A stretch of 64,000 bases of DNA, taken from NCBI GenBank assembly GCA_964036045.1, contig CAXIWF010000588.1:39001-103000 (forward strand), in the 5' to 3' direction. Under the pieces are notes generated by a model. It ran no database searches. It was given only the letters and a program-made list of their open reading frames with translations, and was not told the origin of the DNA. Position 1 is the stretch's first letter. Each line of letters begins with the position of its first letter. The position numbers and the translations under genes were made by a program. Below, piece after piece: positions 10,087 to 64,000 of the stretch. The stretch comes from Eutreptiella sp. 'Long Island Sound 2002' (taxonomy: Eukaryota; Euglenozoa; Euglenophyceae; Eutreptiales; Eutreptiaceae).

Positions 10087-11454
10087 ATGAGGAAGAATGC
10101 ACATGTCATGGGAATGGGCGTCTCTGGTAATGCAGCAGCCCGCTTGCTTCGACGCCATTCGTGGTGTGTCACGGTAAGCGATTCCAAGGACAACGACGCC
10201 CTGCGGCAGCAAAAGGAATCCCTCGCTGCACAGGGCATCACGGTCCTTCTGGGGACCGCCTTCACCCCCGACGCGGCCCTAGACCTCGTCGTCGTGAGCC
10301 CGGGCGTCCCGTGGGACGCCCCACCGTTGGTCCGGGCACGGGAGCTCGGGGTGCCCACCGTCGGGGAGCCGGAACTGGCCTGGCGCTTCCTCAAGGACGT
10401 GCCGTGGGTGGGCATCACCGGCACGAACGGCAAGACCACCACCACCGCCCTCATCGCGGCCATCTTCCAGGCGGCCGGGCTGCACGCCCCCGCCTGCGGC
10501 AACATAGGCCACCCCCTATCGGAGGTGGCGATTGCCGCGGCCGATGGCCGCCGCCCGGACTGGGTCGTCGCGGAGCTGTCCAGCTACCAGATCGAGGGCA
10601 CCGCCGAGCTCGCGCCCCGCGTCGGCGTGTTCACGACGTTCACCCCGGATCACCTGGAGCGGCACCGGACAATGGACAACTACTTCCGCGTCAAGGCCGC
10701 CCTGCTGCACCGGTGCGACGTGCGGGTGCTGAACGGCGACGATCCGGAGCTCCGGAGGCGGGCCGGCGCGGAGTGGCCCGCGGCGGTGTGGACCAGCGCG
10801 CAGGGCCCGGCCTCGGTCCCGCGGAACGCGGACCGGGGGGTCTATGTGGCAAGCGGTTGGGTGGTGGCCGCCGGGGCCCGGGTGGTGCGGGCCGACGCTT
10901 TGCGGGTGCCGGGGGGGCACAACCGGCAGAACTTGCTGATGGCGGTGGCGGCCGCGGTGGCGGCGGGCGTCCCCGCGGAGGCGATCGCGGAGGCGGTCGC
11001 GGGCTTCGAGGGCGTGCCCCACCGCCTGCAGACGGTGCGCCGCGGCGGCGGCCTCGCGTTCGTCAACGACAGCAAAGCGACGAACTACGACAGCGCCCAA
11101 GTGGGGCTGGACGCCTTCGAGGGCCCCGTCATCCTCATCGCCGGGGGGCAGGCGAAGGAGGGGACCGACAGCGCCGGGTGGCTCGGGGCCGTCCGGCGCA
11201 GGTGCGCGGGGGTCGTGCTGATCGGCCGGGACGGGCCGGCGCTCGCGGGGCTGCTCCGGGGCGCCGGGTTCGCGGACTGCGAGGTGGCGCAGGACATGGG
11301 GCAGGCGGTGCGCCGCGCCGCGGAGTGGGCGGGGCAGAAGGGGGTGGCGACGGTGCTGCTCAGCCCGGCCTGCGCGAGTTTCGATCAGTACCGCAGCTTT
11401 GAGCACCGGGGCGAGCATTTCCAGCAGCTCTGCCTCGAATTGCCGGGTGTCTGA
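10087..11454 (+). CDS. murD: UDP-N-acetylmuramoylalanine--D-glutamate ligase (MurD)
   Basis: MurD adds D-glutamate to UDP-MurNAc-L-Ala using ATP, the second amino-acid step of peptidoglycan precursor synthesis. The 455-aa product has the normal family length in one uninterrupted frame. An N-terminal Rossmann-like start (AHVMGMGVSGNAAARLL) is followed by the ATP-binding loop GITGTNGKTTTT (about 109-120), LSSYQIEG, the DHLERH segment, the C-terminal-domain signature NDSKATNYDS (about 326) and LSPACASFDQYRSFEHRG near the end. Motif wording such as VVVSPGVPWDAP, ELAWRFL and HNRQNLLMA is typical of cyanobacterial MurD. ATG 10087 lies where bacterial MurD begins, but CAG|GGC just before it looks like a splice acceptor, so an upstream targeting exon is possible. 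The gene is GC-rich compared with its surroundings, consistent with transfer. Confidence 0.95.
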   Translation: MRKNAHVMGMGVSGNAAARLLRRHSWCVTVSDSKDNDALRQQKESLAAQGITVLLGTAFTPDAALDLVVVSPGVPWDAPPLVRARELGVPTVGEPELAWRFLKDVPWVGITGTNGKTTTTALIAAIFQAAGLHAPACGNIGHPLSEVAIAAADGRRPDWVVAELSSYQIEGTAELAPRVGVFTTFTPDHLERHRTMDNYFRVKAALLHRCDVRVLNGDDPELRRRAGAEWPAAVWTSAQGPASVPRNADRGVYVASGWVVAAGARVVRADALRVPGGHNRQNLLMAVAAAVAAGVPAEAIAEAVAGFEGVPHRLQTVRRGGGLAFVNDSKATNYDSAQVGLDAFEGPVILIAGGQAKEGTDSAGWLGAVRRRCAGVVLIGRDGPALAGLLRGAGFADCEVAQDMGQAVRRAAEWAGQKGVATVLLSPACASFDQYRSFEHRGEHFQQLCLELPGV

Positions 11455-11462
11455 CGAGGATC

Positions 11463-11819
11463 GTACCCCCCCCTCCCCTTGTCCTAGCCACGCCCTTGTC
11501 CAAGCTACAGTAGGCGTGGGGACCGTATTAATTCGGTACCAAATGTAGTGCAGCCACATTAGACATGGGTTTGGTGACGAATTTGCCAGTTACATAGGGT
11601 CGTGGACACATTTGTTGTGAGTGTTTGCCCGCTTGAACTCACACAGCTCTGATTTTGGGGATATTTGTGCACCATATCCCCCTTTCTTGCACCAGCTGAC
11701 CATGCCGGTAGTTGTATGTGTCGCGCGCAAGCTACGCCCTTGTCCAAGCTACAGTCGGCGTGGGGACCGTATTAATTTGGGACTTTTGCGTAGCTTATAC
11801 AAACGGGGGGGGGGGGTCA
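11463..11819. mobile_element. C-tract TIR element directly after murD
   Basis: It begins GTACCCCCCC only 9 bp after the murD stop and ends with GCGTAGCTTATACAAACGG running into a G run and GTCA. Ends are inverted repeats (CCACGC near the left end against GCGTAGC near the right). Two internal copies of CCTTGTCCAAGCTACAGT are followed by GGCGTGGGGACC at 11501 and 11750. The flanks GTAC and GTCA are not identical, so the target duplication is not clean here. It probably supplies the murD 3' UTR. Confidence 0.6.
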
Positions 11820-12084
11820 TCACTCATCTGCATCCGCACCTGCACCGGCACATCGGGCCCTTGCTGAGGGGCATTCAATGGCCATGTCGGTGCAGTGACC
11901 TCAGGGCGGCATTCCGGGCTGGCCTGGTTTGCGCTGCGAGAGCGGCCCGGCCAAACACTTTGTGATTGCAGGGCGCTTGAGCTCAGGTGGACTGAGGGAG
12001 TCTGGCAGGAGGTCAGGATCGTGCGGGTGATTCCAAAACCCTGACGCCATCGCCCCGGGGGCATGGGCGGATGAGTCAGAGGCC

Positions 12085-12346: not shown

Positions 12347-12349
12347 TTT

Positions 12350-15184: not shown

Positions 15185-15713
15185 ATGAGTCATTCCGGCG
15201 TCGCGTCTGCTGCTGCGCCGGGCCGCACGCCCGCCGCGCAGGCGGCGCTCCGCCTCATCCAGTCGGGCCAACCCATCGCGGCCCACTTCATCGGCATTTG
15301 CGGCGCGGGCATGAGCGGGATCGCGAAGGTGTTCCTGCAGCAGGGGCACACCGTCACCGGCAGCGACTTGGCCCGCTCCGGCGCCGCCGCGGAGCTGGAG
15401 GCGCTGGGCGCGGTGGTCCACATCGGGCACGCGGCCAAGCACTTGGGGCGCCCGCACGTGGTGGTGTTCACCGGCGCCATCCCGTCCGGCAACCCCGAGT
15501 ACCTGCGGGCGCAGCAGGAGGGCCTCCCGGTCCTGCACCGCTCGCAGGCCCTGGCCCTGCTGCTCTGCAACCGCACGGCCGTTGCGGTGTCCGGCAGCCA
15601 CGGCAAGACCACGTCCACGGCGATGGTGGCGGTGGCCCTGCGGCATCTCGGGGCGGACCCCAGTTTCGTGAATGGCGGTGTGGTGATGGATGTGGGCTCG
15701 AGCGCGGCTTCGG
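15185..15713 (+). CDS. murC: UDP-N-acetylmuramate--L-alanine ligase (MurC), exon 1 of 3
   Basis: MurC joins L-alanine to UDP-MurNAc with ATP, the first amino-acid step of peptidoglycan precursor synthesis. I join 15185-15713, 19333-19748 and 25583-26119; the lengths (529+416+537) total 494 codons including the stop, giving 493 aa, normal for MurC. Exon 1 carries a short N-terminal extension of about 33 residues rich in Ala (no clear signal peptide), the nucleotide motif HFIGICGAGMSG and the ATP loop SGSHGKTTST (about 136-145). It ends in GGVVMDVGSSAASG. ATG 15185 is the first start after an in-frame stop at 15161. The donor is G|GTTGCT at 15713/15714, phase 1. Wording such as VLHRSQALALL and HLGADPSF is typical of actinobacterial MurC. 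Confidence 0.92.
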
Positions 15714-15730
15714 GTTGCTGCTCCTCCCAT

Positions 15731-16106
15731 GTACCCCCCCCCCCCTTTGTATTAGCCACGCCCTTGCCCAAGCTACAGTAGGCGTAGGGACCTCATTCAT
15801 TTGGTACCTAATTTGATTCGGTCCCCAATGTAGTGCAGCCACATAAGACATGGGTTTGGTGACGAATTTGCCAATCAGATGGGGTCATGGACACATTTGT
15901 TGTGAGTATTTGCCCACTTGAACCCACAGAGCTCTGATTTTGGGGATATTTGTGCATCATATTCCCCTTTCCTGCACCAGCTCACCGTGCAATCTTGTCT
16001 TTCTGAACCAGCGCGCAAGCTACGGCCTTGTCCAAGCTACAGTAGGCATGGGGACCGTATTCATTTGGGACTTTTGCGTAGCTATTACAATGGGGGGGGG
16101 GGGCAC
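15731..16106. mobile_element. C-tract TIR element at the start of murC intron 1
   Basis: It begins GTAC then 12 C, 17 bp inside the intron, and ends GCGTAGCTATTACAATGG then a G run and GCAC. It is a close relative of the element after murD: both share TTTGGTGACGAATTTGCCA, TTGTTGTGAGT.TTTGCCC and GGGACTTTTGCGTAGCT. The flanks GTAC and GCAC differ by one base. Confidence 0.65.
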
Positions 16107-16455
16107 CCTCTGCTTCGTCTCTGCCCCCCTCCACACACGCACTATCACCGTCGAGGGGAAGGCCGAAGGAGGGCTATGCTTAGCAGCCCCAACACGGTGG
16201 GAGCAGTAGAATGCAGCTCGCATACGCGGGCGCCAGCGATTATATTGATCAGGTAGGGCACGATGGACAGCGGGTTTCCGCACAGGCAACCATGCCACTG
16301 TACTCACCAGCCAACAACCCACGCATCGACCAGGGGTACATACGATAGTGGAGCACCCCAACCAAGAAGGGAGCACGATGACTGTGCAAGAACCACTGCA
16401 CTAACGGCTGAGATTGTCTGTGGCGGGGACATTCAGTCAATTGATACCGACCATT

Positions 16456-16805
16456 GAACCCCTAGTAACCACCTAACCGCCACCGACCAACCACCTAACA
16501 ACCACCGAACAACCACCACCAACCATCTACCAACCACCAACCGCCTAACAACCACCTAACAACCACCACCAACCGCCTACAACCACCTAACAACCACCAC
16601 CAACCACCTACTGACCATCCAAAAACCACCCACCAACCACCGACCAACCACCTAACAACCACCGAACAACCACCACCAACCATCTACCAACCACCAACCA
16701 CCTGACCACCACCTAACAACCCCGTAACAATCACCTAACGGCCACCACCAACCACCGAATAACAAACGAAAAACCCCCTACCGACCACCTACCAACCACC
16801 TGGTA
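16456..16805 (+). repeat. ACCACCTAACAACC minisatellite
   Basis: About 350 bp of AACCACC(T/G)A(A/C)CAACC variants with no fixed higher-order period visible by eye. The minus-strand Gly/Val/Trp-rich ORF at 16495-16683 is a translation of this array. Confidence 0.8.
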
Positions 16806-17149
16806 GCCACCTAGTCGGATGCAGCCCGACAAACGGGCGCCGCAACATTATTGATCTGGTCCTCCACGGAAACATCAGGTTACAGCAGGTTACAGCACAG
16901 ACCACTAAAACCACTGTACTTACCAGCCAGTGCCAGGATCCCTCATCCGATGTACATATGATAGTGGAGCACCCCAACCAAGAAGGGAGCACAATGACTG
17001 CGCAAGAACCACTGGACCAACGGCTGAAATTGTCTATAGCAGGGACATTCAGTCATTCGATACCGACCATTGAACACCCCCGCACACGCACACGCGCACA
17101 CACCCACACACACCCTGGGGGTGGGTGGGGGAGTGCTGTCGGAAATGCA

Positions 17150-17285
17150 TTGTACGACGCGTCGGGGCGTCGTACAAGGCGTCGGGGCCCGACGCGTCGG
17201 GAGCGTACGACGCGTCGTACAGTGTCGTACAAGGTGTCGTACAGCACCAACACCGTACGACACAGTACGACATAGTACGACCGCC
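17150..17285. repeat. Palindrome-rich GACGCGTC repeat block 1
   Basis: A run of interlocking palindromes: GTACGACGCGTCGTAC, GGGGCCC, GACGCGTC and repeated GTCGTAC(A/G). A second block of the same words lies at 17576-17685. Every few bases there is a self-complementary word, so single strands would fold heavily. Confidence 0.7.
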
Positions 17286-17317
17286 CTCCCCCTCTAGGCG
17301 GGTAAACGATGGCAGCG

Positions 17318-17450
17318 GACCGTCTTGGGGGAAGGGGGCCTTCGGCCCCCTTCCCAAATATTGGCACTTCGCGTCTACAACATGCCGACAGTGTCTACAA
17401 TTAGCAGGCCGCGTCTACCTGTGGTGCACAGTGTCTACAGACCCCAGACC
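17318..17450 (+). repeat. GTCTACA repeat with perfect GC hairpin
   Basis: GGAAGGGGGCC TTC GGCCCCCTTCC forms an 11-bp perfect stem near 17331-17356. It is followed by GTCTACAACATGC, GTCTACAATTAGCAG and GTCTACC words, matching the copies at 9195-9480. Confidence 0.65.
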
Positions 17451-17462
17451 GCCCTCCCCCTG

Positions 17463-17575
17463 TGCAGAGTGTTGCTTAATAGAAGGGGGGGGGGCAGAGT
17501 GTTGCTTAAGAGAGGGGGGGGGGGGGGCAGAGTGTTGCTTAAGAGAGGGGGGGGGGCAGAGTGTTGCTTAAGACA
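17463..17575 (+). repeat. Short tandem repeat GCAGAGTGTTGCTTAA plus G run
   Basis: Four units of GCAGAGTGTTGCTTAAGAGA followed by a G run of variable length (8-14). Confidence 0.8.
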
Positions 17576-17685
17576 CTGTACGACGCGTCGTACAGTGTCG
17601 TACAAGGCGTCGGGGCCCGACGCGTCGGGGATGTACGACGCGTCGGGAGGTGTCGGGGCCCGACGCGTCGTAAAATCCCTATTTC
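17576..17685. repeat. Palindrome-rich GACGCGTC repeat block 2
   Basis: The same interlocking words as at 17150-17285, including GTACGACGCGTCGTAC and GGGGCCCGACGCGTCG, directly after the GCAGAGTGTTGCTTAA array. Confidence 0.7.
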
Positions 17686-18155
17686 GACAGTAGTGGGGTG
17701 GGGGGGGGCGACGTACACAAACACACACCCAGAGGGACGACGTCCAAGGGTGAGAGATTGCACACAAGCGGGAGGGCAACCGGTGTGCAGGGCTGGAGGG
17801 GTGTGTGTGTGGGGGGGGGGGGGGGGTTGGCGCATCGGGGTGTGGCGTTGCAGGAGGATGCAGCAAATGCCTCGGAGGTGGCGGGGATCCCTGCCTGAAA
17901 AAGTGGTGCAGTGAACAGGTAACCCCCCCCCGCCTTGCGGAAGCACCGCCTTGTCCAAGCACCGGGACCCGGTCTGACCGTCGTTTTTCTAACCGCAGTT
18001 TTTATGGTCAGAAACTTAACAGAACGTGATTGTGTGCCGATTGTAGAGGGAAACAGGGGCTGTGTCATGTTTGGGATGAGTCCCCCTGCTCATAACAACA
18101 TTAATTTACGCTTGCTACTGCACCCCGCTGCTGTTTGTTTTGATGGGATTTTCAG

Positions 18156-18509
18156 TCATGACTCATGCCGTTCCTCATGGCTTGGCTGGTACCGCGCGTC
18201 GCACCGCCTTGTCCAAGCACCGGGACCGGATAGTGGCTCGGTTTCTACCATTGGTTCCAACCCCAGCTCGTCCCACTCCGCGACCCTGCGCCGCTTGGAT
18301 AGCGGCAACAGATTGTTTGGGTGTAGTTCTCTCCCCCTCTCCGCGAGCGCATCTGCCGCCTCGTTCCCCGGCACCGCCAAATGTGAGGGTACCCATCGCA
18401 GTCGTACGCCCCCACCCGCGGACTCCCGCAGCCACAGGATTGCCTCCCACAGGTCCCGAGGATTCGGGGGCGGGGACGTCGGAAGACGAAGAGGTGTTGT
18501 CCGTGTCAT
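18156..18509 (-). pseudogene. RNase H C-terminal fragment, inverted
   Basis: On the minus strand the frame includes DLWEAILWLRES, LRWVPSHLAVPGNEAADALA and a following RGRELHPNNLLPL. This is the last third of an RNase HI domain: the PSH histidine and the final GNEAAD aspartate are present, while the first three catalytic acids are absent. The equivalent part of the intact ORF at 20811-22193 has VDLWIQILEL and LHIPSHIGIKGNGRADHLAD. It is a truncated copy and should not be active. Confidence 0.6.
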
Positions 18510-18670
18510 CAGCAGAGCTGTCCGGGGGCGGGTTCTCCACTGATGTCAGTGATCGGGCACGGGAGAGGGCGCAGGAGTTTGGCAACATGGGGGTGTGGGA
18601 CACAGATTACAGTACGGATGTCAGTGACAGCCGGAAGCGTAAGGGCAGGAGGGTAATCAAGACTTCCTGA
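18475..18670 (+). pseudogene. Tail of an RNase H-family ORF
   Basis: The + strand encodes SEDEEVLSVSSAELSGGGFS, TDVSD, then a basic end RKRKGRRVIKTS and a stop. The ORF at 1-825 ends VSSDGFSTDVSESRLL, so this is the same Ser-rich tail. It lies head to head with the inverted domain fragment at 18156-18509. An internal inversion has therefore separated domain and tail within one transposed copy. The family 3' hairpin follows at 18802-18816. Confidence 0.5.
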
Positions 18671-19332
18671 TACGTGGCCTAAAGGCACGTGCCTGACCAT
18701 AAACTAACCGGAGGTGGCGCCAGAGGCGCCTTTCTGGACCGATGGGACAATGTGTGGTGGCGCCTGACGGCGCCTTGCTGGACAGCACGAACAATGTGTG
18801 TCGCGGCTCCGCCGCGTGATACTTGCTGATTGAGGGCATAGGTCTGTCGGTGGGGACCTATTGCTGAACTTTCCACTGTTCTATGGCCAAGCACCGGGAC
18901 CCGGTCTGACCGTCGTTTTCCTGATTTTCCTGGTGCTTGCGCATGGGGGGGGGGGGGGTAATTGACAGCGCTGCGCGTTGTGTGGTGTGGGCATGCGGTG
19001 CACTGGGGCACCCTCTGGGGGGGGGAGGGATGCATTAGAAGGGAAAAGACCGCAGAGGCGGCCCCAGAGGCGGCACCAGAGGCGGTTAGGCAGGCGGTTG
19101 GAGGAGGTTGCCAAAGCGGTTTGGGGGGCGGTTACTGTCGGTTACAAATGCCGTTGAGGCTGGCACTTGGCGTCAGGGGGACAGTGGCTGGGCATAGGCA
19201 GGGCGCCGTGCCGGGGGGGGGGGGGGGCTCCCCCTTCCAATGCATCCCTGGGGGGGGGGGTCCCCACTACCTCTTTCCTCCCCTTGTTCAGCCCCTGGTG
19301 GCGAGGGCTTCGGTCAAACCTCCCGGTGTCAG

Positions 19333-19748
19333 GCTCCGGACGAATGTTCGTTATCGAGGCCGACGAGTCGGACAAATCGTTCCTAAATTACCCGGTGGAC
19401 GTCGCGTTCATTACCAACGTCGACTTTGATCACCCCGACTTCTTCTCCGGCCGCGACGCCTACGAGGACGCCTTCGTGGAGTTCGCGACCGCGGCCCGCG
19501 ATGCCGTCGTCATCTGTTTGGACGACCCCGGCGGGCGGCGGGTCCGCGCCCGCCTCACGCACCGCCGCGTCGTGGGCTACGGGTTCGCCGCGGACGCCGA
19601 CCTGCGGCTTCTGGCGGTGGACGCCAGTGGGCCCGCCGCGTCTGCGGCCGTTTGCTTTGCGGGCCAAGAGCACAAAGTGCGGCTGCGGGTGCCCGGGCGG
19701 CACAACGCCTACAATGCCGTGGGGGCCCTGGCGGTGCTGACGGCCCTG
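19333..19748 (+). CDS. murC: MurC exon 2 of 3
   Basis: This exon encodes the end of the central ATPase domain. It starts SGRMFVIEADESDKSF, where the EADESD acids bind Mg-ATP in MurC, continues through NVDFDHPDFF and the linker VPGRHNAYNAVGA, and ends GALAVLTAL. The acceptor is CAG at 19330-19332. The exon must end at 19748 to continue in frame into GFPIAAALEA of exon 3, which gives the donor GCATGC (a GC-AG intron). Reading on without splicing adds 11 residues and stops at 19779-19781. Confidence 0.9.
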
Positions 19749-37776: not shown

Positions 37777-37805
37777 CGGCCCCAGGGGACTAGGACAGCA
37801 TGGGA

Positions 37806-45627: not shown

Positions 45628-45671
45628 AAAAGCAATAATGCGGTTAAGTAAGAGAAGAATGATGCAACTTT

Positions 45672-46587: not shown

Positions 46588-46620
46588 AGGGGGCCGGAGC
46601 CCCCTGGAATCACCAAGTCA

Positions 46621-50860: not shown

Positions 50861-50949
50861 ATTTAACGTGTAAAGAGCGTGTAAAAAGCGAAGGCACGTG
50901 TGAGTCAACCAAACGTGGAAAAAATAGAAAGCTCGAAGCGACAAATTGA

Positions 50950-53729: not shown

Positions 53730-53772
53730 GAGGAGCGAGTTAGTATGACCCTTGGGTGGTCAAACGAGAGGT

Positions 53773-53910: not shown

Positions 53911-54408
53911 TGTGTAACCCATCAGTTTCCATTGATCTGATAAGGCCCCAAAGAAACTTTCCTCAAATACTGAAGTGCATGGCGTTGCTTTTAAAGCAGA
54001 TAAGTGGGTAGAAGAGGTAGGATCCAATGCACCACCATTTCTATAAGCAATAGTATACTTCTCCCACCGCTCTGACATGACACGGAAGATGATGCGTAGG
54101 CGCCTCAACAAGATCGGCAACAAAGGGTGAGTTTGTACGATTGCCATTCCCTTGCCCTCAAATTGCAAAGCAAGCTTGGGATCCAAGGCCCATGAACGCA
54201 ATGCCTCTTGGAATTGCAAAACATAAGGGTGGGCAGCGCCAACGGAAACAATACCACCTGCATGAAACTCTTGGAAGAAAGGCTTCGCCCAACATGCATG
54301 CAAAACCGTACCCATCATGAGAAACAAGCACGTGGAGGGTGCTTGTGCCCAACGGAGAAGAGAAGACCACCAAGGCAAAGAGTCACCATTGCGAACCTTA
54401 TCTTGCAA
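53911..54408 (-). CDS. Transposase-like protein, part (copy B)
   Basis: Same frame as 44686-45627 up to SDQWKLMGYT, where the Penelope-like element cuts it off at 53910. It reads KATPCTSVFEESFFGALSDQ, with Glu where copy A has Lys. Confidence 0.4.
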
Positions 54409-54449
54409 AAAAGCAATAATGCGGTTAAGTAAGAGAAGAATGATGCAAC

Positions 54450-55238
54450 TTACATAGAATGTGCTAAAGAATCGCTATCCAATGGTCCGCCCCAAAGTGG
54501 GGGTGGTTGTGTGATGGCGGTTTTGTTGTGAGTAAGGGGGCATTGCAAAATCGCATGGATCCATCGTCCCCCACCCGACTCATCAATTGCACGACCGGAG
54601 TTGCATTGGAAATGCCAACCTTCCTTTGATGTCCCGTCGCGACCCATACACATGGCAAAGTCCTTTGAACTTTTCTTGGCTTGTGCAAAAGCAAGGGCCG
54701 CGCACTCTTTCGCCCACTCACCTCCCTCAACACCCCAACGATCAAAGGTGCATCTACAAGGAACACGTGTGACATGAATCCCAAATGCATTAGCCCCATG
54801 GACAATGTGTTGACCAACCTTGTTTGCAGAAGTACGATCTCTCATCATACGGTAGGCACATTGACGCACACTTGCCTTGTATCTACCACCATGAAAAAGG
54901 GAAGGATTTTGCGAGCGAAGCAATTGTCTTTTGAGACAAGAAGAAACGACATTGCGCGCCAAAGCCTTTGCCCTCCATCTTGCCCTACTATTGACTACTT
55001 GCAAAACACGTGAGTGGGACATCCTTAACCTAAGGTTTTTTTCCTTAAGTTCCTTCTTCCTCTTATAATCAACGGCCCGAAGTGCAACCATTCGGCGCCT
55101 TGTCTTCTCCATCTCAATCTTCACATCGGTCAACCTCTTTTCATACATCTCCAACTCAAGGTTTTTGATCGTTGCTTCTTTCAACATCATGTTGCAACGA
55201 TCCTCCACTACCTTCAAGTCTCCCAAAGTCCTTTGCAA
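54450..55238 (-). CDS. Transposase-like protein, middle exon (copy B)
   Basis: 262 codons with the same coiled coil and GRDGTSKEGWHFQC as copy A. It begins after an acceptor-like CTTTTCAACCTGCTTTAG|G near 55247 and ends where ATG overlaps a perfect GTAAGT donor, so it is likely an internal exon. The downstream acceptor (TTTTTTGCAAG near 54410) does not give a clean in-frame join by eye, so the exact splice is unresolved. Confidence 0.45.
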   Translation of the reverse strand: MQRTLGDLKVVEDRCNMMLKEATIKNLELEMYEKRLTDVKIEMEKTRRRMVALRAVDYKRKKELKEKNLRLRMSHSRVLQVVNSRARWRAKALARNVVSSCLKRQLLRSQNPSLFHGGRYKASVRQCAYRMMRDRTSANKVGQHIVHGANAFGIHVTRVPCRCTFDRWGVEGGEWAKECAALAFAQAKKSSKDFAMCMGRDGTSKEGWHFQCNSGRAIDESGGGRWIHAILQCPLTHNKTAITQPPPLWGGPLDSDSLAHSM

Positions 55239-55515
55239 CCTAAAGCAGGTTGAAAAGCAAGTGTCGGCACCTCAAAAGTGGAGCCGTACTTGGATCGGTA
55301 ATACTTGCCGGTGTCATTTTTGGGTCGCCGGCAACCCAAAACACCAACGGGTGCACCGTACTTGACGAAACTAGCCAAATCCTAAATGCCTTTTGATCCC
55401 TCAACTTGTGGTGCCTTTAGCTTGGAAATCCATGAGGATCCACTTTTTCGCAATATTAGTACCCAAAGGTGAATAGCATGGTCAAACCTTGAAAACAAAG
55501 CGGCACAAGGTAACA

Positions 55516-55992
55516 CTACAACCTAGCAAACACGCACAAGCAGTTTTTGGAGGCAACCAACACGGACATGTACCACGATTGCAACATGGTGACAATTGTT
55601 GGCCTAAATTGTAAATCAAGGTTGTAATGACCACAATGCAAGGAGTCACACCTTGAAAGTTTGGGTGTAGACCTCACTCGTAGTTGCCTTTTTAACCTTG
55701 AGCGCGTCCTAGTTGCCACTTGTTGACAATGACCTTCAAAAGTCTTCTTCTCAAACTTCTCTTCCTTGATTGTCCCCAACAATGCCTTGCCCCTAGCCTT
55801 GCAATCACCAATGTAGCACCATTGTGGTGTCCTACCACACTTCAGGTGAGGAGGGGGTGGCTGCAATGGTAGCTCGGTCGGCGGCGAACGCCATTGCGTC
55901 GAGACTACCAAGTCGCCATGAACCCAACACCACTTTCTTGGCATTAGTAGTGCGGCAGCAGGATCCAAAGATCTGAAACATAGAATCGTCAT
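55516..55992 (-). CDS. Possible N-terminal exon of the transposase-like protein (copy B)
   Basis: A 158-codon frame. The most protein-like part is MPRKWCWVHGDLV, then TPQWCYIGDCKARGKALLGT and IKEEKFEKKTFEGHC, with paired Cys and a His that could bind zinc. The last 60 codons look non-coding, so an exon would end inside. The frame starts within the MITE at 55950-56048. An identical frame occurs in copy C at 59973-60449. Confidence 0.3.
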   Translation of the reverse strand: MTILCFRSLDPAAALLMPRKWCWVHGDLVVSTQWRSPPTELPLQPPPPHLKCGRTPQWCYIGDCKARGKALLGTIKEEKFEKKTFEGHCQQVATRTRSRLKRQLRVRSTPKLSRCDSLHCGHYNLDLQFRPTIVTMLQSWYMSVLVASKNCLCVFARL

Positions 55993-56048
55993 AGAATTAA
56001 TAGTTCTAACATCCTATCAAAAAAAATTCTTGGATCCTGTTGCCGCAC
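55950..56048. mobile_element. 99-bp MITE with TA duplication (copy B)
   Basis: Terminal inverted repeats GTGCGGCAGCAGGATCC and GGATCCTGTTGCCGCAC (one mismatch), flanked by TA on both sides (55948-55949 and 56049-56050). Size, AT-rich centre and TA duplication suit a Tc1/mariner-type miniature element. Confidence 0.7.
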
Positions 56049-56871
56049 TATGATTTTACATTCGATTTTGCACTAAAACTGCCCCTTCCGCAGCAGCCGG
56101 CGGCCATCGCCAGCTGTCCCGTACCCGTCCAGGGCTAGGACTCCACCCCTAATCCCCATTCCTACCTGTAAAAAACCCTCCAAAAAGGGGGTTTCACCAA
56201 GGTGGGAGGCGGCCCCGGGCCGAAGCGCACCGGCGCAATCTGCCGCAAGGTCCTCACAGCCCTTGTCCACCCCTACCTGCACTTTGCACGCGATGCACAG
56301 AAACTGGGCGATTCTTGAACTCAAGTGCAGTGTTCTGCAGCTTGTCCTTTGATGTATATTCATTGGGAATGTGTGCATGGTGTAGATTTTGCCCCGCTTG
56401 CCCCGTTTTTGCTGCCCCATTTCTTTTCAAGTCCTTTTTTTATTTAAGCACACCACATGAGAAGAAATTAGGCCCAAAGTGTATGTACCAAATAAAGGCC
56501 ACTCGTGGAAGCGAATAACGACTCACTTGGTGTTGCTTCTGGCCGTGCGCTTTTTGTATGCTTGCCTCATCTGCAACTTCATGATAGTTTTCGGTGATTT
56601 AAATTGCAAGTGATGAATGAATTAGTGCATTTTGCACGTGGTACCTTCAATTGTATGCCCATGGTCTTGCGGACGTGTCGTTTCTAGCCTACACCCGGTT
56701 GGTAGTTCTCAGCCAGCCCTGTCTGCCACTGCTAGGGTTAGGGTAGGGGCAAGGCCACACGATAGCACTAAACAAAGGCAAGCAATAAGTCATTGGAGCA
56801 GCTTCACCATTCAAAATGTTAAGCAACACAATGTTGGATTTACTTAAGCTGGTCCGTATGGGCACAAAGCA

Positions 56872-57327
56872 TCAATCAAGGAGCCGGCGCGGGATGGCGC
56901 GGGCCCGACCTGAGCGACTGGGCTGAGCAGACATGTTCACGATAGCCTGTGCTTCAGGAGCAACCACCCTACGCTTAGCCTGGTGAGCTGTGTGCGTGTC
57001 CGGTGCCCTCTCCCTTTTCTTGGGTGGTGGCCGTGGTGGCTTTGCTTTGGCTCTCTCTTCCCTTGCCTGTGCCGCCTGTGCTTGTGCTTGCTGTCTGGCC
57101 CGTTTGGCTTCCTCTTTCTGCCTCTGAGCCTGCAGGATGTCATCGTGCTTACATTTCGCGAGCTGAATGCGGAAATTCTTTACACACTTCCCATGCATTT
57201 CCTCTACACGGGCAGCCCGGTGAATAAGTTGGGAGACATCCTCCTCTAACAGGGGCATGTCGACACTTGCATTTGCACGGCTGATAGCCGTAGCAGTGAC
57301 ACGCCAGGGAGCAGCAGTGTAACCCAT
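56872..57327 (-). CDS. Transposase-like protein, C-terminal part (copy C)
   Basis: 151 codons equal to the end of the copy A frame: MGYTAAPWRVTATAISRANA, the coiled-coil section, the RPPPKKRERAPDT basic segment and IPRRLLD at the end. Its upstream part continues to about 57397, where the foldback element interrupts it, and resumes at 58447. Confidence 0.4.
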   Translation of the reverse strand: MGYTAAPWRVTATAISRANASVDMPLLEEDVSQLIHRAARVEEMHGKCVKNFRIQLAKCKHDDILQAQRQKEEAKRARQQAQAQAAQAREERAKAKPPRPPPKKRERAPDTHTAHQAKRRVVAPEAQAIVNMSAQPSRSGRARAIPRRLLD

Positions 57328-57395
57328 CAGTTTCCATTGATCTGATAAGGCCCCAAAGAAACTTTCCTCAAATACTGAAGTGCATGGCGTTGCTT

Positions 57396-58449
57396 TTTAT
57401 TATGAAAACGGGCTATTAACCCGTTTTCCTCAATGAAAACGGGCTGTAAAAGGTGCGTAAGCACCTTAGCCCGTTAACCTGTCCACAGTTTTGGCAGGGG
57501 TTAACCCGTGTTGCTCAATGAAAACGGGCTATTAACCCGTTTTTCTAGAAAGAAACGGGTTAACCCCAAATTTTATGGGCTTATGGGTGGAGGCTCCTCC
57601 TCACCCTGCTCCCGTGGCCGATTTGGACCGTGAACCGGTGGAGGCTCCTCCCCACCCTGCTCCCGTGGCCGATTCGAGCCCTGCAAAGCTTAGTGTGACA
57701 TCCTCCCAATCAGGTGGCTCTGTTGACTTGCTTGCTGGTGGTAGAAGTGAGTCTAGTGAGTCGATGTGTGACTATGACGAGCGACCCTTGACACAGGTGT
57801 CCCTGAAGCGCTCTTTGGAGGATAGTCGCCAAGAGTATAGGGATGCACCTCCCACCGCAGCTAATGCTCCCATTTCCCAAGATCTCTCGGATATGCCAAT
57901 GCCTTTCCAAAAGATGCGGCGACCAAAGTGTCCGCCTGCGGTTAGGCAAGTGGCATCCGAGTTCATTTGTCATAAGTGCTCCCGAGAGATCAATGTGTGG
58001 TGTCCTTTACGACGGTAGCATGATGTCTTTTGTGTGATGTGTAATGCTCCGTACCATGAAGCTTGCATGGGCGAGGGTGCCAAAGATGGCTCCATGCATA
58101 ATTATTGTGCACTATTATTAATAATGTACACTCGGATTCGAAGGACAAATCAAAACAAACTAACATTATACTATATTATTATAAACGCTAATGAAAGGTG
58201 ACCACTCGAAACTATCCTGTCTCGTGTATGTACAGTGGAGGCGTTTTTCCCCATGCCAGTGGTAGGGTTTTTTATCACGTCATCCAACATTTCACATGCG
58301 GTACTTTCTTTTTTTCCTTGCCTCTCCTCCATGTGTCAACTGGAACCTGCACCGGTCGCCGGGAGGTTTGCACAAGTGTCCCAAGAACCTAACGTCGGTC
58401 TGGTTAACCCGTTTTTCAGCCAAATAAAACGGGCTATTAACCCGTTTTT
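57396..58449. mobile_element. Foldback-type element with AAAACGGG palindromes
   Basis: Inserted in GCTTTT|AAAGC of the transposase-like unit; the empty site is seen at 53985-53996 in copy B. The left end contains GAAAACGGGCTATTAACCCG and the right end AAAACGGGCTATTAACCCGT, each itself a near-perfect palindrome. More copies of the AACGGG/CCCGTT palindrome occur at 57434-57480, 57518-57560 and 58402-58415. TTTT on both sides may be the target duplication. Confidence 0.7.
57575..58018 (+). pseudogene. PHD-like zinc-finger gene fragment inside the foldback element
   Basis: A 147-codon frame. It starts with an imperfect duplication (VEAPPHPAPVAD twice), continues with a Ser/Asp-rich acidic region, and ends FICHKCSREINVWCPLRR with a stop. 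In the same frame after the stop come FCVMCNAPYHEACMGEG. Together the Cys/His spacing (CHKC, then W.C, CVMC, H, C) resembles a PHD or RING-like zinc finger broken by one TAG at 58016. Best read as a host gene fragment carried by the element. Confidence 0.45.
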
Positions 58450-58865
58450 AAAGCAGATAAGTGGGTAGAAGAGGTAGGATCCAATGCACCACCATTTCTA
58501 TAAGCAATAGTATACTTCTCCCACCGCTCTGACATGACACGGAAGATGATGCGTAGGCGCCTCAACAAGATCGGCAACAAAGGGTGAGTTTGTACGATTG
58601 CCATTCCCTTGCCCTCAAATTGCAAAGCAAGCTTGGGATCCAAGGCCCATGAACGCAATGCCTCTTGGAATTGCAAAACATAAGGGTGGGCAGCGCCAAC
58701 GGAAACAATACCACCTGCATGAAACTCTTGGAAGAAAGGCTTCGCCCAACATGCATGCAAAACCGTACCCATCATGAGAAACAAGCACGTGGAGGGTGCT
58801 TGTGCCCAACGGAGAAGAGAAGACCACCAAGGCAAAGAGTCACCATTGCGAACCTTATCTTGCAA
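58447..58865 (-). CDS. Transposase-like protein, part (copy C)
   Basis: The same frame as 53911-54408 from MQDKV.. to STHLSALK, then cut by the foldback element at about 58447. Confidence 0.4.
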
Positions 58866-58906
58866 AAAAGCAATAATGCGGTTAAGTAAGAGAAGAATGA
58901 TGCAAC

Positions 58907-59695
58907 TTACATAGAATGTGCTAAAGAATCGCTATCCAATGGTCCGCCCCAAAGTGGGGGTGGTTGTGTGATGGCGGTTTTGTTGTGAGTAAGGGGGCAT
59001 TGCAAAATCGCATGGATCCATCGTCCCCCACCCGACTCATCAATTGCACGACCGGAGTTGCATTGGAAATGCCAACCTTCCTTTGATGTCCCGTCGCGAC
59101 CCATACACATGGCAAAGTCCTTTGAACTTTTCTTGGCTTGTGCAAAAGCAAGGGCCGCGCACTCTTTCGCCCACTCACCTCCCTCAACACCCCAACGATC
59201 AAAGGTGCATCTACAAGGAACACGTGTGACATGAATCCCAAATGCATTAGCCCCATGGACAATGTGTTGACCAACCTTGTTTGCAGAAGTACGATCTCTC
59301 ATCATACGGTAGGCACATTGACGCACACTTGCCTTGTATCTACCACCATGAAAAAGGGAAGGATTTTGCGAGCGAAGCAATTGTCTTTTGAGACAAGAAG
59401 AAACGACATTGCGCGCCAAAGCCTTTGCCCTCCATCTTGCCCTACTATTGACTACTTGCAAAACACGTGAGTGGGACATCCTTAACCTAAGGTTTTTTTC
59501 CTTAAGTTCCTTCTTCCTCTTATAATCAACGGCCCGAAGTGCAACCATTCGGCGCCTTGTCTTCTCCATCTCAATCTTCACATCGGTCAACCTCTTTTCA
59601 TACATCTCCAACTCAAGGTTTTTGATCGTTGCTTCTTTCAACATCATGTTGCAACGATCCTCCACTACCTTCAAGTCTCCCAAAGTCCTTTGCAA
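58907..59695 (-). CDS. Transposase-like protein, middle exon (copy C)
   Basis: 262 codons, identical by eye to 54450-55238, including the coiled coil, GRDGTSKEGWHFQC and the GTAAGT donor at the end. Confidence 0.45.
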   Translation of the reverse strand: MQRTLGDLKVVEDRCNMMLKEATIKNLELEMYEKRLTDVKIEMEKTRRRMVALRAVDYKRKKELKEKNLRLRMSHSRVLQVVNSRARWRAKALARNVVSSCLKRQLLRSQNPSLFHGGRYKASVRQCAYRMMRDRTSANKVGQHIVHGANAFGIHVTRVPCRCTFDRWGVEGGEWAKECAALAFAQAKKSSKDFAMCMGRDGTSKEGWHFQCNSGRAIDESGGGRWIHAILQCPLTHNKTAITQPPPLWGGPLDSDSLAHSM

Positions 59696-59972
59696 CCTAA
59701 AGCAGGTTGAAAAGCAAGTGTCGGCACCTCAAAAGTGGAGCCGTACTTGGATCGGTAATACTTGCCGGTGTCATTTTTGGGTCGCCGGCAACCCAAAACA
59801 CCAACGGGTGCACCGTACTTGACGAAACTAGCCAAATCCTAAATGCCTTTTGATCCCTCAACTTGTGGTGCCTTTAGCTTGGAAATCCATGAGGATCCAC
59901 TTTTTCGCAATATTAGTACCCAAAGGTGAATAGCATGGTCAAACCTTGAAAACAAAGCGGCACAAGGTAACA

Positions 59973-60449
59973 CTACAACCTAGCAAACACGCACAAGCAG
60001 TTTTTGGAGGCAACCAACACGGACATGTACCACGATTGCAACATGGTGACAATTGTTGGCCTAAATTGTAAATCAAGGTTGTAATGACCACAATGCAAGG
60101 AGTCACACCTTGAAAGTTTGGGTGTAGACCTCACTCGTAGTTGCCTTTTTAACCTTGAGCGCGTCCTAGTTGCCACTTGTTGACAATGACCTTCAAAAGT
60201 CTTCTTCTCAAACTTCTCTTCCTTGATTGTCCCCAACAATGCCTTGCCCCTAGCCTTGCAATCACCAATGTAGCACCATTGTGGTGTCCTACCACACTTC
60301 AGGTGAGGAGGGGGTGGTTGCAATGGTAGCTCGGTCGGCGGCGAACGCCATTGCGTCGAGACTACCAAGTCGCCATGAACCCAACACCACTTTCTTGGCA
60401 TTAGTAGTGCGGCAGCAGGATCCAAAGATCTGAAACATAGAATCGTCAT
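59973..60449 (-). CDS. Possible N-terminal exon of the transposase-like protein (copy C)
   Basis: Same translation as 55516-55992, with the Cys-containing WCYIGDCKARGK section. Confidence 0.3.
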   Translation of the reverse strand: MTILCFRSLDPAAALLMPRKWCWVHGDLVVSTQWRSPPTELPLQPPPPHLKCGRTPQWCYIGDCKARGKALLGTIKEEKFEKKTFEGHCQQVATRTRSRLKRQLRVRSTPKLSRCDSLHCGHYNLDLQFRPTIVTMLQSWYMSVLVASKNCLCVFARL

Positions 60450-60505
60450 AGAATTAATAGTTCTAACATCCTATCAAAAAAAATTCTTGGATCCTGTTGC
60501 CGCAC
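60407..60505. mobile_element. 99-bp MITE with TA duplication (copy C)
   Basis: Duplicate of the MITE at 55950-56048 (offset 4457), carried along by the unit duplication rather than inserted independently. Confidence 0.7.
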
Positions 60506-61287
60506 TATGATTTTACATTCGATTTTGCACTAAAACTGCCCCTTCCGCAGCAGCCGGCGGCCATCGCCAGCTGTCCCGTACCCGTCCAGGGCTAGGACTC
60601 CACCCCTAATCCCCATTCCTACCTGTAAAAAACCCTCCAAAAAGGGGGTTTCACCAAGGTGGGAGGCGGCCCCGGGCCGAAGCGCACCGGCGCAATCTGC
60701 CGCAAGGTCCTCACAGCCCTTGTCCACCCCTACCTGCACTTTGCACGCGATGCACAGAAACTGGGCGATTCTTGAACTCAAGTGCAGTGTTCTGCAGCTT
60801 GTCCTTTGATGTATATTCATTGGGAATGTGTGCATGGTGTAGATTTTGCCCCGCTTGCCCCGTTTTTGCTGCCCCATTTCTTTTCAAGTCCTTTTTTTAT
60901 TTAAGCACACCACATGAGAAGAAATTAGGCCCAAAGTGTATGTACCAAATAAAGGCCACTCGTGGAAGCGAATAACGACTCACTTGGTGTTGCTTCTGGC
61001 CGTGCGCTTTTTGTATGCTTGCCTCATCTGCAACTTCATGATAGTTTTCGGTGATTTAAATTGCAAGTGATGAATGAATTAGTGCATTTTGCACGTGGTA
61101 CCTTCAATTGTATGCCCATGGTCTTGCGGACTTGTGGATCAATTTCGTGTGACTTGCCTCAACTTTGAACGATTTTCTTCATACATTTTTTTGCAAGATG
61201 GATTGTGTGCATAATCTTGTGTGCCTTTGTGTGCCTTTCTATTTTCTTTTTAAATTTTTTGGATCATTTTTGTCGACATGGATTAGT

Positions 61288-61386
61288 GGATCATTTCTTT
61301 TTTTTTGGAACTTACATTTATTGATCCACCAATATGTGTGAAAAAAAAAAGACCCAAAAATGTAAGTTCCAAAAAAGAAATGATCC
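61288..61386. repeat. Long inverted repeat in AT-rich DNA
   Basis: GGATCATTTC, a T run and GGAACTTACATTT (61288-61319) is the reverse complement of 61358-61386 except for three A/T bases in the run. GATCCA(A/C)CAATTTG words continue to 61460. No gene is seen in 61133-61720. Confidence 0.75.
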
Positions 61387-61719
61387 AACAATTTGCCTGG
61401 AAAAAATATGATCCAAAATGTTAGTTCCAAAACCGAAATGATCCACCAATTTGTGTGGAAAAAATATGATCCAAAATATGGTGCTTTGTACTTGCACTAT
61501 GTGTTACTGTTACTACCCGTTGGATCATTTTTCTTGCTGCCGAATTGGTGGATCACGTGTTTGCATGGATGTTCCGGGAAATCGTGGATCATTTTGCTAG
61601 GCAGTTGGGGGGGTTTTATGGGATAGGTGATCCGTGATCCGCGGATCATTTTTTGGGGGGGGGAGAGCGGGGGTTTTGGACCCCCGCGGATCAGTGATCC
61701 GCGGACTACCTACCACACA

Positions 61720-62420
61720 GGGCGCATAGAGGGCGCATAGTGGGTGCACAGTGGGTGCATAGTGGGTGCATAGAGGGCGCATAGTGGGCGCCTACAGGGC
61801 GCAGAGAGGGCACATAGTGGGCGCATACAGGGCACACAGTGGGCGCATAGAGGGTGCATAGAGGGCGCACAGAGGGCACATAGTGGGCGCATAAAGGTCA
61901 CATAGAGGGCACATAGAGGACACATAGAGGGTGCATAGAGGCCGCATAGAGGGCACATAGTGGGCGCACGGTGGGTGCATAGAGCGCGCATAGATAGAGG
62001 GCATATAGAGGGCACATTGAGGGCGTACAGAGGGCGCATAGTGGGCACATAGAGGGCGCACGGAGGGCACATAGAGGGCACATAGTGGGCGCACAGAGGG
62101 CGCACAGAGGGCACAAAGAGGGCGCATAGTGGGCACATAGAGGGCGCATAGAGGGCTCATGGAGGGCGCATAGTGGGCGCATGGTGGGCGCATAGTGGGC
62201 GCATGGTGGGCGCATAGTGGGCGCATACAGGGCGCAGGGAGGTAGCATAGTGGGCGCATAGAGGGTGCATGGAGTGGCATAGAGGGCGCATAGAGGGCAC
62301 ACAGAGGGCGCACAGTGGGCGCATAGAGGGCGCATAGATGGCGCATAGAGGGCGCATACAGGGCGCATAGAGGGCGCAGAGAGGGCACATAGAGGGCGCA
62401 TAGTGGGCGCATGGTGCGCG
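61720..62420 (+). repeat. 10-bp minisatellite GGGCGCATAG
   Basis: About 65 units of (A/T)G(A/T)GGGCGCATAG variants (GGGCACATAG, GGGTGCATAG, GTGGGCGCAT). All minus-strand Pro/Leu/Cys/Ala ORFs here (61710-62548) are translations of the array. Confidence 0.9.
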
Positions 62421-62429
62421 CATAGTCTC

Positions 62430-63029
62430 GCTAGTGCTCTCTTGGGGAGCATGCCCGCAAGACTTGTTTCACGACCCTGAAATGATGTGTGCGGATGACG
62501 TGTGCTGACCTGTGCAGGGGAAAGGCACAGCACGGCATTAACCAACATGGCATTCGGAGTGAGGAGAATATGTTAAAATGGTCTCATCACTGTGGACATT
62601 TGGTGTGTTCATGAACAAGTTCCAATGAATATTGCAGACCTGAGTATGACTTCGCTACATGTGTGCCCACATGTGTGGCTGCATCCCGGCTAATTTCAGA
62701 TATGTCATATGTATAAGGGCAAATGACACGCCGTGTTACATCCAAGGCACCTTTCCTATTGATGGTAACCCGGGCAGTAGTGTGAAGGCCCATCAAACTC
62801 CATCTCTGCATCTTCCTGTTGAGTTGGTATTGGTATGATAATACACCCCAAGCGCACTCCCCCCTCCTGCCCACCTGCTCTTTCACCAGCCCCAGAACTC
62901 CGTCCCGCCCACCCGCCCGACACCCGCGTGACCATGTTCCGCCCATCTGCCCACCCACCTGCAGCCTCGCCGTGTCTTTTCCCCTCTTCTGCCGGGTATG
63001 CCCATTGCAAATCCTGAACAACATTTGTG
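62430..63029. other. Region upstream of murE
   Basis: No supported gene on either strand. ORFs of 60-155 codons overlap in opposite directions. C/T-rich stretches at 62868-62990 could serve as splice signals for a leader exon of murE, but none is certain. Confidence 0.35.
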
Positions 63030-64000
63030 ATGCGGCTGGTGGCGGTATCCACAAGTTTGCCGGATGTTGAAATCACAGGCATAGAAATCGACTCCCGCCG
63101 TGTGGCGCCGGGCAACTTGTTCGCGGCCCTGCATGGTGCCGCCACGGACGGCCGATCCTTCATCCCGCAGGCGCTTGAGAAGGGCGCCACCGCGATATTA
63201 GGCTCTGGCTTGACGGCGTACGATTGTGGATCCGCAGCGGTGATCGACACCGACGATCCGCGGGGCTTACTGGCGAAGATTGCCGCCGCGTTCCACCAAC
63301 CCACCGTGCCCACGGTGTTGGCTGTCACGGGGACGAACGGCAAAACCAGCGTCACTCAGTTCGTCCGCCAAATGCTCACGCACCTGGGCCACAAATGCGC
63401 GAGCTTCGGGACGTTGGGCGCCGTTCCCGAGGGCGTCGTCGAGCTGCCGAGCATGACCACGCCCGACGTCGTGTCCCTCCATCGCGCGCTCCAAGCGTTC
63501 GCCGAACGGGGCTTCACGCACGTGGTCCTGGAGGCCAGTTCCCACGCGTTGGATACCCGTCAGAAACGGTTGGACGGCGTGCGCTTTGCTGCGGCGGCGG
63601 CCACGAACCTCACGCAGGACCACTTGGATTTCCACGGGACGCTCGAGCAGTACGCGGCCGCCAAGCAGCGGCTGTTCGATGACCTGTTGGACGGCCCCGC
63701 CGTTCTGCACGAGGACGCCCTCGGGCACTTCCGGGTCGACAAGGCGGTGGTGGTCGGGCGCGGCGGGGCCGCGGATCTCGTTGTGGGGCACGAGCGGGCC
63801 CCCGCCGGCGCGCGGGTGTCCCTCCGCTTCAACGGGGAGGTCGCCCGCGCCGACGTGCCCGTGTGCGGGGCGTTCCAGGCCGACAACATCGGCGTGGCGG
63901 TGGCCCTGGTGATGAGCTGCGGCCACACGTTCCCCGACGCGTGCGCGGCGGTGCGCGCGATCACCGTCGTGCCCAGCCGATGCGAGGTCGTGGCCGCCGA
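63030..64000 (+). CDS. murE: UDP-N-acetylmuramoyl-tripeptide synthetase (MurE), 5' part
   Basis: MurE adds the third amino acid (meso-diaminopimelate or L-lysine) to UDP-MurNAc-L-Ala-D-Glu with ATP. The frame is open for 323 codons from ATG 63030 and runs off the window. Visible motifs in order: ITGIEIDSRRVAPGNLFAAL (N-terminal UDP-sugar domain, about 16-35), the ATP loop VTGTNGKTSVT (about 98-108), TTPDVVSLHRAL, LEASSHALD (about 166-174) and NLTQDHLDFHGTLEQYAAAK with the Lys that is carbamylated in this family. The substrate-selecting DNPR or equivalent motif lies beyond the window, so the amino acid cannot be told. Wording such as IDSRRVAPG.LFAAL.GA..DGR is typical of alphaproteobacterial MurE. 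An in-frame stop lies at 63015. An acceptor-like AATCACAG at 63077 falls inside the conserved start, so the first exon boundary is uncertain. Confidence 0.92.
   Translation, partial: MRLVAVSTSLPDVEITGIEIDSRRVAPGNLFAALHGAATDGRSFIPQALEKGATAILGSGLTAYDCGSAAVIDTDDPRGLLAKIAAAFHQPTVPTVLAVTGTNGKTSVTQFVRQMLTHLGHKCASFGTLGAVPEGVVELPSMTTPDVVSLHRALQAFAERGFTHVVLEASSHALDTRQKRLDGVRFAAAAATNLTQDHLDFHGTLEQYAAAKQRLFDDLLDGPAVLHEDALGHFRVDKAVVVGRGGAADLVVGHERAPAGARVSLRFNGEVARADVPVCGAFQADNIGVAVALVMSCGHTFPDACAAVRAITVVPSRCEVVAA

Follow-up and report, generated by a model that had tools for sequence, protein, structure and literature searches.

Soluble peptidoglycan-precursor genes of several apparent bacterial origins on an 85-kb repeating unit in the genome of Eutreptiella

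The genome of the photosynthetic marine euglenid Eutreptiella (2.28 Gb) encodes MurA through MurF, and the affinities of these genes suggest that they came from several bacterial donors. We started from a stretch of 64,000 nucleotides (the window), which is the final 64 kb of a 103-kb contig (C588). The explanation we prefer, and to which we give an even chance, is that the host encodes a mosaic pathway for soluble peptidoglycan precursors and that a bacterium living within the cell carries out the membrane steps, as described for mealybugs. Eutreptiella would have gained the soluble peptidoglycan genes from different bacteria and would use them as its own; the enzymes would act in the host cytosol or go to the partner, and would take UDP-GlcNAc to UDP-MurNAc-pentapeptide of the diaminopimelate type. 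Since the host appears to be without MraY and MurG, lipid I and lipid II would need a bacterial maker, presumably a resident intracellular bacterium that lost its own MurA–F. The available portions of two reports describe the same division of labour for mealybugs and Moranella (PMC12176269) and a Eutreptiella strain with endobiotic Rickettsiales as well as epibiotic bacteria (PMC8061765).

A first-pass annotation of the window had proposed that MurD, MurC and MurE lie on one strand in transposon-rich surroundings, that MurC is split by introns, and that the three are of cyanobacterial, actinobacterial and alphaproteobacterial type, respectively. Profile scores and reading frames bore out the genes and their setting, the 'MurE' proving to be the start of a MurE-MurF fusion, and the guessed affinities held, that of MurC on its best matches. 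We assigned a protein to a family when its score exceeded the curated NCBIfam cut-off, and MurA, MurB, MurC, MurD, MurE and MurF all scored above it. MurD is a single open frame of 455 aa (10087..11454, + strand; TIGR01087 387.8 bits, cut-off 211.95) in which the motifs GTNGKTT, PDHLERH and DSKATN are all kept. It showed 62% identity to the MurD of Oscillatoriaceae cyanobacterium M33_DOE_052, to which it was also sister with an SH-aLRT of 96 in a tree made by a quick method from 47 rows (45 of the 80 fetched loci, the window and E. coli), in which the window row was long and its composition was flagged as odd. By sequence comparison the affinity of MurD is cyanobacterial. Identity to the cyanobacterial relative at the first, second and third codon positions was 0.695, 0.793 and 0.359. 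MurD did not arrive recently, because its third-position GC was 0.905 versus 0.582 in the nearest cyanobacterial MurD. A viral origin was rejected since the viral contigs searched for MurD relatives gave three pattern matches and no true relative.

MurC consists of three exons on the + strand. Exon 1 (15185..15713) and exon 2 (19333..19748) gave 163.6 and 105 bits with TIGR01082 when each exon frame was scored alone, and exon 3 (25583..26119) carries the C-terminal domain to the stop. Between them lie a 3.6-kb intron with GT..AG ends (15714..19332) and a 5.8-kb intron with GC..AG ends (19749..25582), the latter containing a retroelement frame with an RNase H domain (20811-22193; PF00075, 84.3 bits). 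The MurC model matched proteins of Eutreptiella gymnastica transcripts (MMETSP and UniRef) at 94-99% identity. One of these, the MMETSP protein P0121, contains both splice junctions and residues identical to those of exon 3, so the proposal that MurC is intron-split was confirmed. A second, P0122, shares the first junction and likewise lacks intron 1, but reads into intron 2 and stops. One of the MurC transcript proteins other than P0122 lacks 27 aa of the model. The whole protein, as P0121, scored 381.5 bits against the TIGR01082 cut-off of 335.1; the window exons scored singly fall below it. A dinoflagellate host, to which the GC..AG intron had pointed, was rejected: the spliced-leader signal was no higher than chance (1 match versus 3.29 expected), and the MurC matches then identified Eutreptiella.

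The named rows among the best 120 matches listed for MurC were actinobacteria, mostly from genera of the Microbacteriaceae. In a quick tree of 40 rows (38 of the 120 listed matches, the window and E. coli) the three Eutreptiella rows sat on a long branch apart from the actinobacterial rows, with E. coli very distant. Because the tree held actinobacterial-type matches and E. coli alone, the actinobacterial affinity rests on the best matches, by which MurC appears nearest to actinobacteria. A plant-type MurC as the source of the 'actinobacterial style', considered from the available part of PMC7231273, was set aside since the named best matches were actinobacteria; of the 120 best matches, those bearing a name included no plant-type (Frankia MurC2-like) MurC.

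At the end of the window lies the first third of a MurE-MurF fusion (63030..64000, + strand), a frame of 324 aa cut by the contig end. The full frame of 915 aa, whose start residues match the window piece, was found at C588:16653-19397 and also on a second contig, C1607. It scored as both MurE (TIGR01085, 462 bits versus 257.3) and MurF (TIGR01143, 411 versus 288.6), and its DNPR motif presumably marks a MurE product of the diaminopimelate type. Among the matches listed its relatives were alphaproteobacterial. A quick tree of 43 rows (the fusion protein itself, E. coli and 41 of the remaining 119 listed matches, one named row being labelled Lactobacillales) placed the fusion on a long branch and its precise position only loosely; the affinity of the fusion is alphaproteobacterial. 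MurA scored 493 bits against a family cut-off of 392.7 and was provisionally given a gammaproteobacterial affinity from its best matches within a plasmid collection.

The full fusion and MurA belong to a unit that extends beyond the window. The sequence of C588 repeats itself about every 85.37 kb (the period is 85,365 bp in C588 and 85,367 bp in C1607, which carries the same genes), and the last 10,704 bases of the window (53297..64000) are identical to C588:6932-17635 (blastn, 100%). Besides the genes of the window the unit contains MurA, a broken copy of MurB and the MurE-MurF fusion at full length, in the cyclic order EF, broken B, A, D, C, with MurA, MurC, MurD and the fusion on the same strand. 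The three-gene set of the first-pass annotation therefore grew. The order D-C-E seen in the window arises because the cut point in the repeating unit fell there, which weakens the earlier argument from gene order against a single transferred operon; that the genes are not one such operon is nonetheless supported, their affinities being different. The sequence overlap fits an extrachromosomal circle and a tandem array equally, both giving the same picture. A retroelement (46444..51797, - strand) with a GIY-YIG-like domain (PF01541, 22.0 bits, just below the cut-off of 22.6), which by resemblance we take to be Penelope-like, has an inverted copy of 98.4% identity at C588:1443-6795, which lies inserted within a different repeat of the unit. 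When 10 proteins of the unit, one of them a 35-aa piece, were compared with protein families, a single weak match was obtained (zf-RVT, 25.2 bits, below the cut-off of 27.5); of 213 further frames of at least 100 aa in the unit, the scans covered a minority.

An intact MurB was located on a 38.9-Mb contig, C22 (180.6 bits, cut-off 144.5). The MurB of the unit has lost its 5' end and carries a frameshift, and together with its 3' flank it aligned to the intact C22 copy with 88% identity over 1,262 columns, which ties the unit to the nuclear genome. A partial frame in the window (3703..4490, + strand) aligned over 799 columns, at 84% identity, with C22:26080299-26081066, a segment situated some 5 kb away from the intact MurB. 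The full-length form of this frame in the unit (588 aa) gave no Pfam match, and 'transporter-like' is our own reading of it. No further Mur relics were detected on C22 at E 1e-3 within the 80 kb examined. Four intact genes lie in the unit and fit the earlier idea of genes brought together; the fifth, the intact MurB, lies elsewhere and does not. With regard to catalytic and ATP-binding motifs, 16 of 17 patterns were matched in the Mur enzymes other than MurB, which was outside the set; the MurA pattern K.G is too short to mean anything. The sole miss was in MurC, where the string DYAHHP is nonetheless present. The frames of MurA, MurD, MurC and MurE-F are full length with their motifs retained.

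The membrane steps gave a different result. No match to mraY, ftsW, murG or ddl was found within the repeating unit. Searching the assembly with PF00953 gave two matches, one on a bacterial contig and one being the host ALG7. PF04101 gave five, of which the two strong ones read as ALG13 and an ALG14-ALG13 fusion, the remainder being three weak MurG-family rows of 33.6-34 bits. The host is thus apparently without MraY and MurG, as judged by searches that could overlook genes split into many short exons. The single bacterial MraY in the assembly lies on contig C1494 beside its own murE and murF, because of which that bacterium needs no host help. The first-pass annotation had suggested a peptidoglycan pathway and a search of the assembly for its other genes; murA, murB and murF were recovered, completing MurA–F, while host mraY and murG were not found, so the half of the pathway that stands is the soluble one, though the host may have a fuller set.

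A plastid role, in which a pathway from a prasinophyte-like plastid donor was patched by later bacterial acquisitions and serves the secondary green plastid, is unlikely. A euglenid bipartite plastid presequence is too long for the in-frame room upstream of MurD (10 codons), MurE-F (4) and MurC (7), though MurA has 104 codons and upstream exons could exist. The plastid pathway would also call for MraY and MurG, neither of which was found in the host, and the best 120 matches for each of MurD, MurC and MurE-F, most of them nameless, included none named as a plant or green alga. In its favour, the available text of published work predicts a complete peptidoglycan set in Cymbomonas, a phago-mixotrophic prasinophyte green alga (PMC5741210), and reports plastid peptidoglycan enzymes of mixed bacterial origin (PMC6704402, PMC6946739). 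Between the plastid and the endosymbiont offered by the first-pass annotation, the evidence leans to the endosymbiont without deciding.

We regard it as improbable that the Mur genes are degenerating cargo of a multicopy 85-kb element with MurC alone still transcribed. The broken MurB and the retroelement acquired by one unit copy are consistent with such decay, as is the finding of transcripts for MurC only among the unit genes: the exact MurD and MurE-F proteins formed one-member clusters, and no transcript source for either was present among the best 120 matches listed for each. The Eutreptiella transcriptome is itself incomplete, with about 37% of core genes missing according to the available part of PMC7052976. 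Against decay are the full-length frames of MurA, MurD, MurC and MurE-F with their motifs, the third-position GC of MurD, which argues that it did not arrive recently, and the intact MurB retained on C22. It is likewise doubtful that the soluble precursors or enzymes have another use, for instance in making UDP-MurNAc-peptides that act on associated or ingested bacteria, without any wall being built. The presence of the soluble steps with the membrane steps apparently missing, and the epibiotic bacteria described in the accessible part of PMC8061765, would suit such a use, but none was evident among the matches listed in the literature searched, and since all the successive soluble enzymes are kept, the ordinary product is the likelier one. 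A wrong joining of bacterial genes to euglenid repeats is highly improbable and already largely refuted: C588 and C1607 are small and self-repeating and the assembly holds the bacterial contig C1494, but the long MurC introns are removed in an independent Eutreptiella transcript, the same genes stand on two contigs, the database entries of the exact MurD and MurE-F proteins name a contig 85,358 bases long, and MurB with its flank is common to the unit and C22.

The preferred reading, a host-encoded soluble pathway feeding a bacterial partner, has its closest counterpart in the mealybug Planococcus citri, where, in the available part of the report (PMC12176269), horizontally gained soluble enzymes are host-encoded and host membrane steps were not found. 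Unlike that insect, Eutreptiella is a photosynthetic protist with MurA–MurF all present and four of five intact genes on an 85-kb unit; P. citri has Moranella as its partner, whereas no endosymbiont genome was encountered for Eutreptiella. The Eutreptiella plastid is secondary, unlike the plastids of glaucophytes, prasinophytes and mosses. The plastid pathway of those groups, as far as the available texts describe it (PMC6704402, PMC5741210, PMC9434261), similarly relies on Mur genes in the nucleus that came from more than one bacterial source; here, in contrast, no MraY or MurG was found, MurD falls inside cyanobacteria, MurE and MurF are fused and the genes are clustered. Paulinella chromatophora also has a Mur ligase of proteobacterial origin, MurF, in the part of PMC6946739 available, one enzyme there versus a five-gene set here. 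As in the bacterial dcw locus of E. coli, MurE, MurF, MurD and MurC share one strand and the cyclic order can be read as E-F, D, C, but here they span 85 kb with MurA and a MurB relic between them, introns and different affinities; on these sequence features the unit is not a compact single-donor dcw operon.

In Eutreptiella a multi-donor pathway is gathered almost wholly on a single repeating DNA unit in a eukaryote. A bolder proposal, which we put forward as speculative and think rather unlikely, is that the unit is a multicopy nuclear circle (episome) of 85 kb, a dedicated wall-precursor replicon assembled from at least four bacterial donors, with which the alga feeds, and thereby controls, the wall of an intracellular bacterium, as early organelle-making in a protist. 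Few steps on the way from endosymbiont to organelle have been observed; one is control by the host over the wall of its symbiont, for which the cited literature offers an insect as the worked example. If the preferred reading is true, the alga divides the work in the same way, and such control could be tested in it by D-amino acid labelling, imaging and inhibitors.

The window carries three Mur ligase genes on one strand, as the first-pass annotation had claimed, and that strand is the forward one: MurD as a single 455-aa frame (10087–11454, above the family cut-off), MurC in three exons (15185–15713, 19333–19748 and 25583–26119) separated by introns of 3.6 and 5.8 kb, and the start of MurE (63030–64000). 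Across the wider Mur set described below, motif patterns were matched in 16 of 17 cases, one of these too short to count, and the sole miss was a mis-set pattern. The setting is indeed transposon-rich, with retroelement frames around the Mur genes (RNase H frames at 1–825 and 20811–22193), numerous tandem arrays (57 rows, overlapping rows counted) and a weak GIY-YIG match at 47630–51001 (22.0 bits, slightly below cut-off). Two direct repeats were observed, one of 2.69 kb (53989–56678 and 58446–61135, 99.9% identity, frames on the minus strand), to whose frames two frames at 44686–46451 without a Pfam match are related, and one of 2.48 kb with copies near each other (31434–33915 and 34177–36658, 95.4%). 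An 11-base unit (AGGGCGCATAG) is present in 64 copies at 61719–62425, which creates a long repetitive open frame on the minus strand, and an array of T-rich 31-base units (26546–27064) starts about 430 bases 3′ of the MurC stop.

The splitting of MurC by introns was confirmed by a Eutreptiella gymnastica transcript protein, P0121, which is 94% identical to the spliced MurC protein over the whole length and has both junctions joined as in the model. P0121 lacks 27 aa of the model inside exon 2 and has a short changed stretch; the gap perhaps reflects either alternative splicing or an assembly fault. A second protein from the same source, P0122, is 99% identical across 65% of the length, runs into intron 2 and then stops. 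These matches point to a Eutreptiella as the host.

The window, positions 39001–103000 of its contig, C588, belongs to a genome totalling 2,280,300,865 bases. C588 is exactly 103,000 bases long, and its positions 6932–17635 are identical to 92297–103000 (period 85,365). In contig C1607 (97,007 bases) the opening 11,640 bases recur, with a single difference, at the far end (period 85,367). C588 17636–103000 and C1607 1–85367 share 99.978% identity (17 mismatches, 2 gaps), and the end of C588 abuts the start of C1607 within this repeating unit of about 85 kb. Because of the round number and the exact abutment, the two look like one 200,007-bp contig split in two. Left of C588 position 6932, a second retroelement copy, 98.4% identical, has landed within the resident copy's gag-like frame, and the unit copies are therefore not all alike. 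Another contig, 85,358 bases long, is also listed as carrying the exact MurD and MurE–MurF proteins. These data would suit a tandem array as well as a mixed population of circles.

A search of the same assembly for murA, murF and murB found the first two in the unit, upstream of the window on the plus strand of C588, as MurA (conserved part about 36,623–37,870; open frame 36308–38074) and a full MurE–MurF fusion (16653–19397). The cyclic gene order is MurE–MurF, broken MurB, MurA, MurD, MurC. The broken MurB (same strand, homology from C588 position 31781, also outside the window) has lost the first part of the gene and contains a frameshift; the intact MurB, one frame above the family cut-off, lies on the 38.9-Mb contig C22. 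The broken copy and its 3′ flank match the C22 copy with 88% identity over 1,262 columns, with an additional match of 170 columns, and a transporter-like segment near the C22 gene recurs in the unit; these shared segments tie the unit to the nuclear genome.

The proposed mixture of donors agreed with the nearest relatives of each protein. For MurD, all 80 loci kept have cyanobacterial titles (closest Oscillatoriaceae M33_DOE_052, 62%), and a tree of 47 rows places it, on a long branch, as sister to that sequence (SH-aLRT 96). For MurC, actinobacteria come next after Eutreptiella (48–53%), a best-hit result, as the MurC tree, limited to actinobacterial-type matches plus E. coli, is no test of other donors. 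The named relatives of the MurE–MurF fusion are mostly alphaproteobacterial fusions (best about 41–46% identity, some across half the length only), and the tree puts the unit's protein inside or next to them. MurA would provisionally be gammaproteobacterial by best match in a plasmid collection (57.8%), and its top solved structures are the MurA entries 4r7u, 3vcy and 1uae, presumably from Vibrio and E. coli. MurB is about 42–43% identical to Aeromonas, Neisseria, Prevotella and Riemerella records. Both origins are provisional because the plasmid collection samples bacteria poorly.

Third-position GC is 0.81 in MurE–MurF, 0.84 in MurC, 0.91 in MurA and 0.905 in MurD, compared with 0.546 total GC for the unit, 0.71–0.73 at third positions of two pieces of host ALG7 and 0.58 at those of the nearest cyanobacterial MurD. 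Over 449 codons, MurD and the latter are 69.5, 79.3 and 35.9% identical at codon positions 1, 2 and 3, a comparison that also spans bacterial history and so shows long constraint on MurD, not present use; third positions are saturated, and the protein has been conserved.

Profile searches of the genome contigs for the Mur ligase middle domain placed all 13 candidates on C588 (5), C1607 (5) and C1494 (3). C1494, which has murE, murF and mraY in a row and, in the 20 kb read, 66% GC and densely packed long frames, looks like a bacterial contig remaining in the assembly. Among the matches examined, none was a host mraY or murG: mraY lies on C1494, and the host PF00953 match and the two stronger PF04101 matches look like ALG proteins. 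PF00953 (MraY) gave two matches among five candidates, on C1494 and on C2, the latter presumably ALG7 by its motif. PF04101 (MurG) gave five among 18, three of them weak (33.6–34 bits); the others we take to be ALG13 on C557 and an ALG14–ALG13 fusion on C7. The ALG13-like gene lies on a small contig (35 kb) though C7 has the fusion, and C557 is perhaps DNA of another eukaryote. PF07478 (Ddl) gave nine weak matches among 23 candidates (maximum 49.1 bits), most on chromosome-scale contigs; the one examined, at C22 position 13802505, is an ATP-grasp-like exon. E. coli MraY, MurG, FtsW, FtsI and DdlB as queries had no match in C588 at E 1.

MurA to MurF would convert UDP-GlcNAc to UDP-MurNAc-pentapeptide, with diaminopimelate presumably as the third residue, as the MurE DNPR motif suggests. 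A host without MraY and MurG cannot make lipid II. Among the matches listed for Eutreptiella or euglenophyte peptidoglycan, dinoflagellate Mur ligases, gene transfer and mosaic pathways (titles and abstract openings, largely outside subscription journals and bioRxiv), there was no report of such a host-encoded pathway. The mealybug host is reported to encode the soluble enzymes itself, with the final three steps left to Moranella (PMC12176269). A Long Island Sound strain of Eutreptiella is reported to carry an endobiotic Rickettsiales, in an association whose symbiotic nature the review calls uncertain (PMC8061765); that strain may differ from this one, and no such partner bacterium was seen in this analysis of the assembly. 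By analogy, a mealybug-type split of the pathway with an intracellular bacterium would be a good, if indirect, fit to Eutreptiella.
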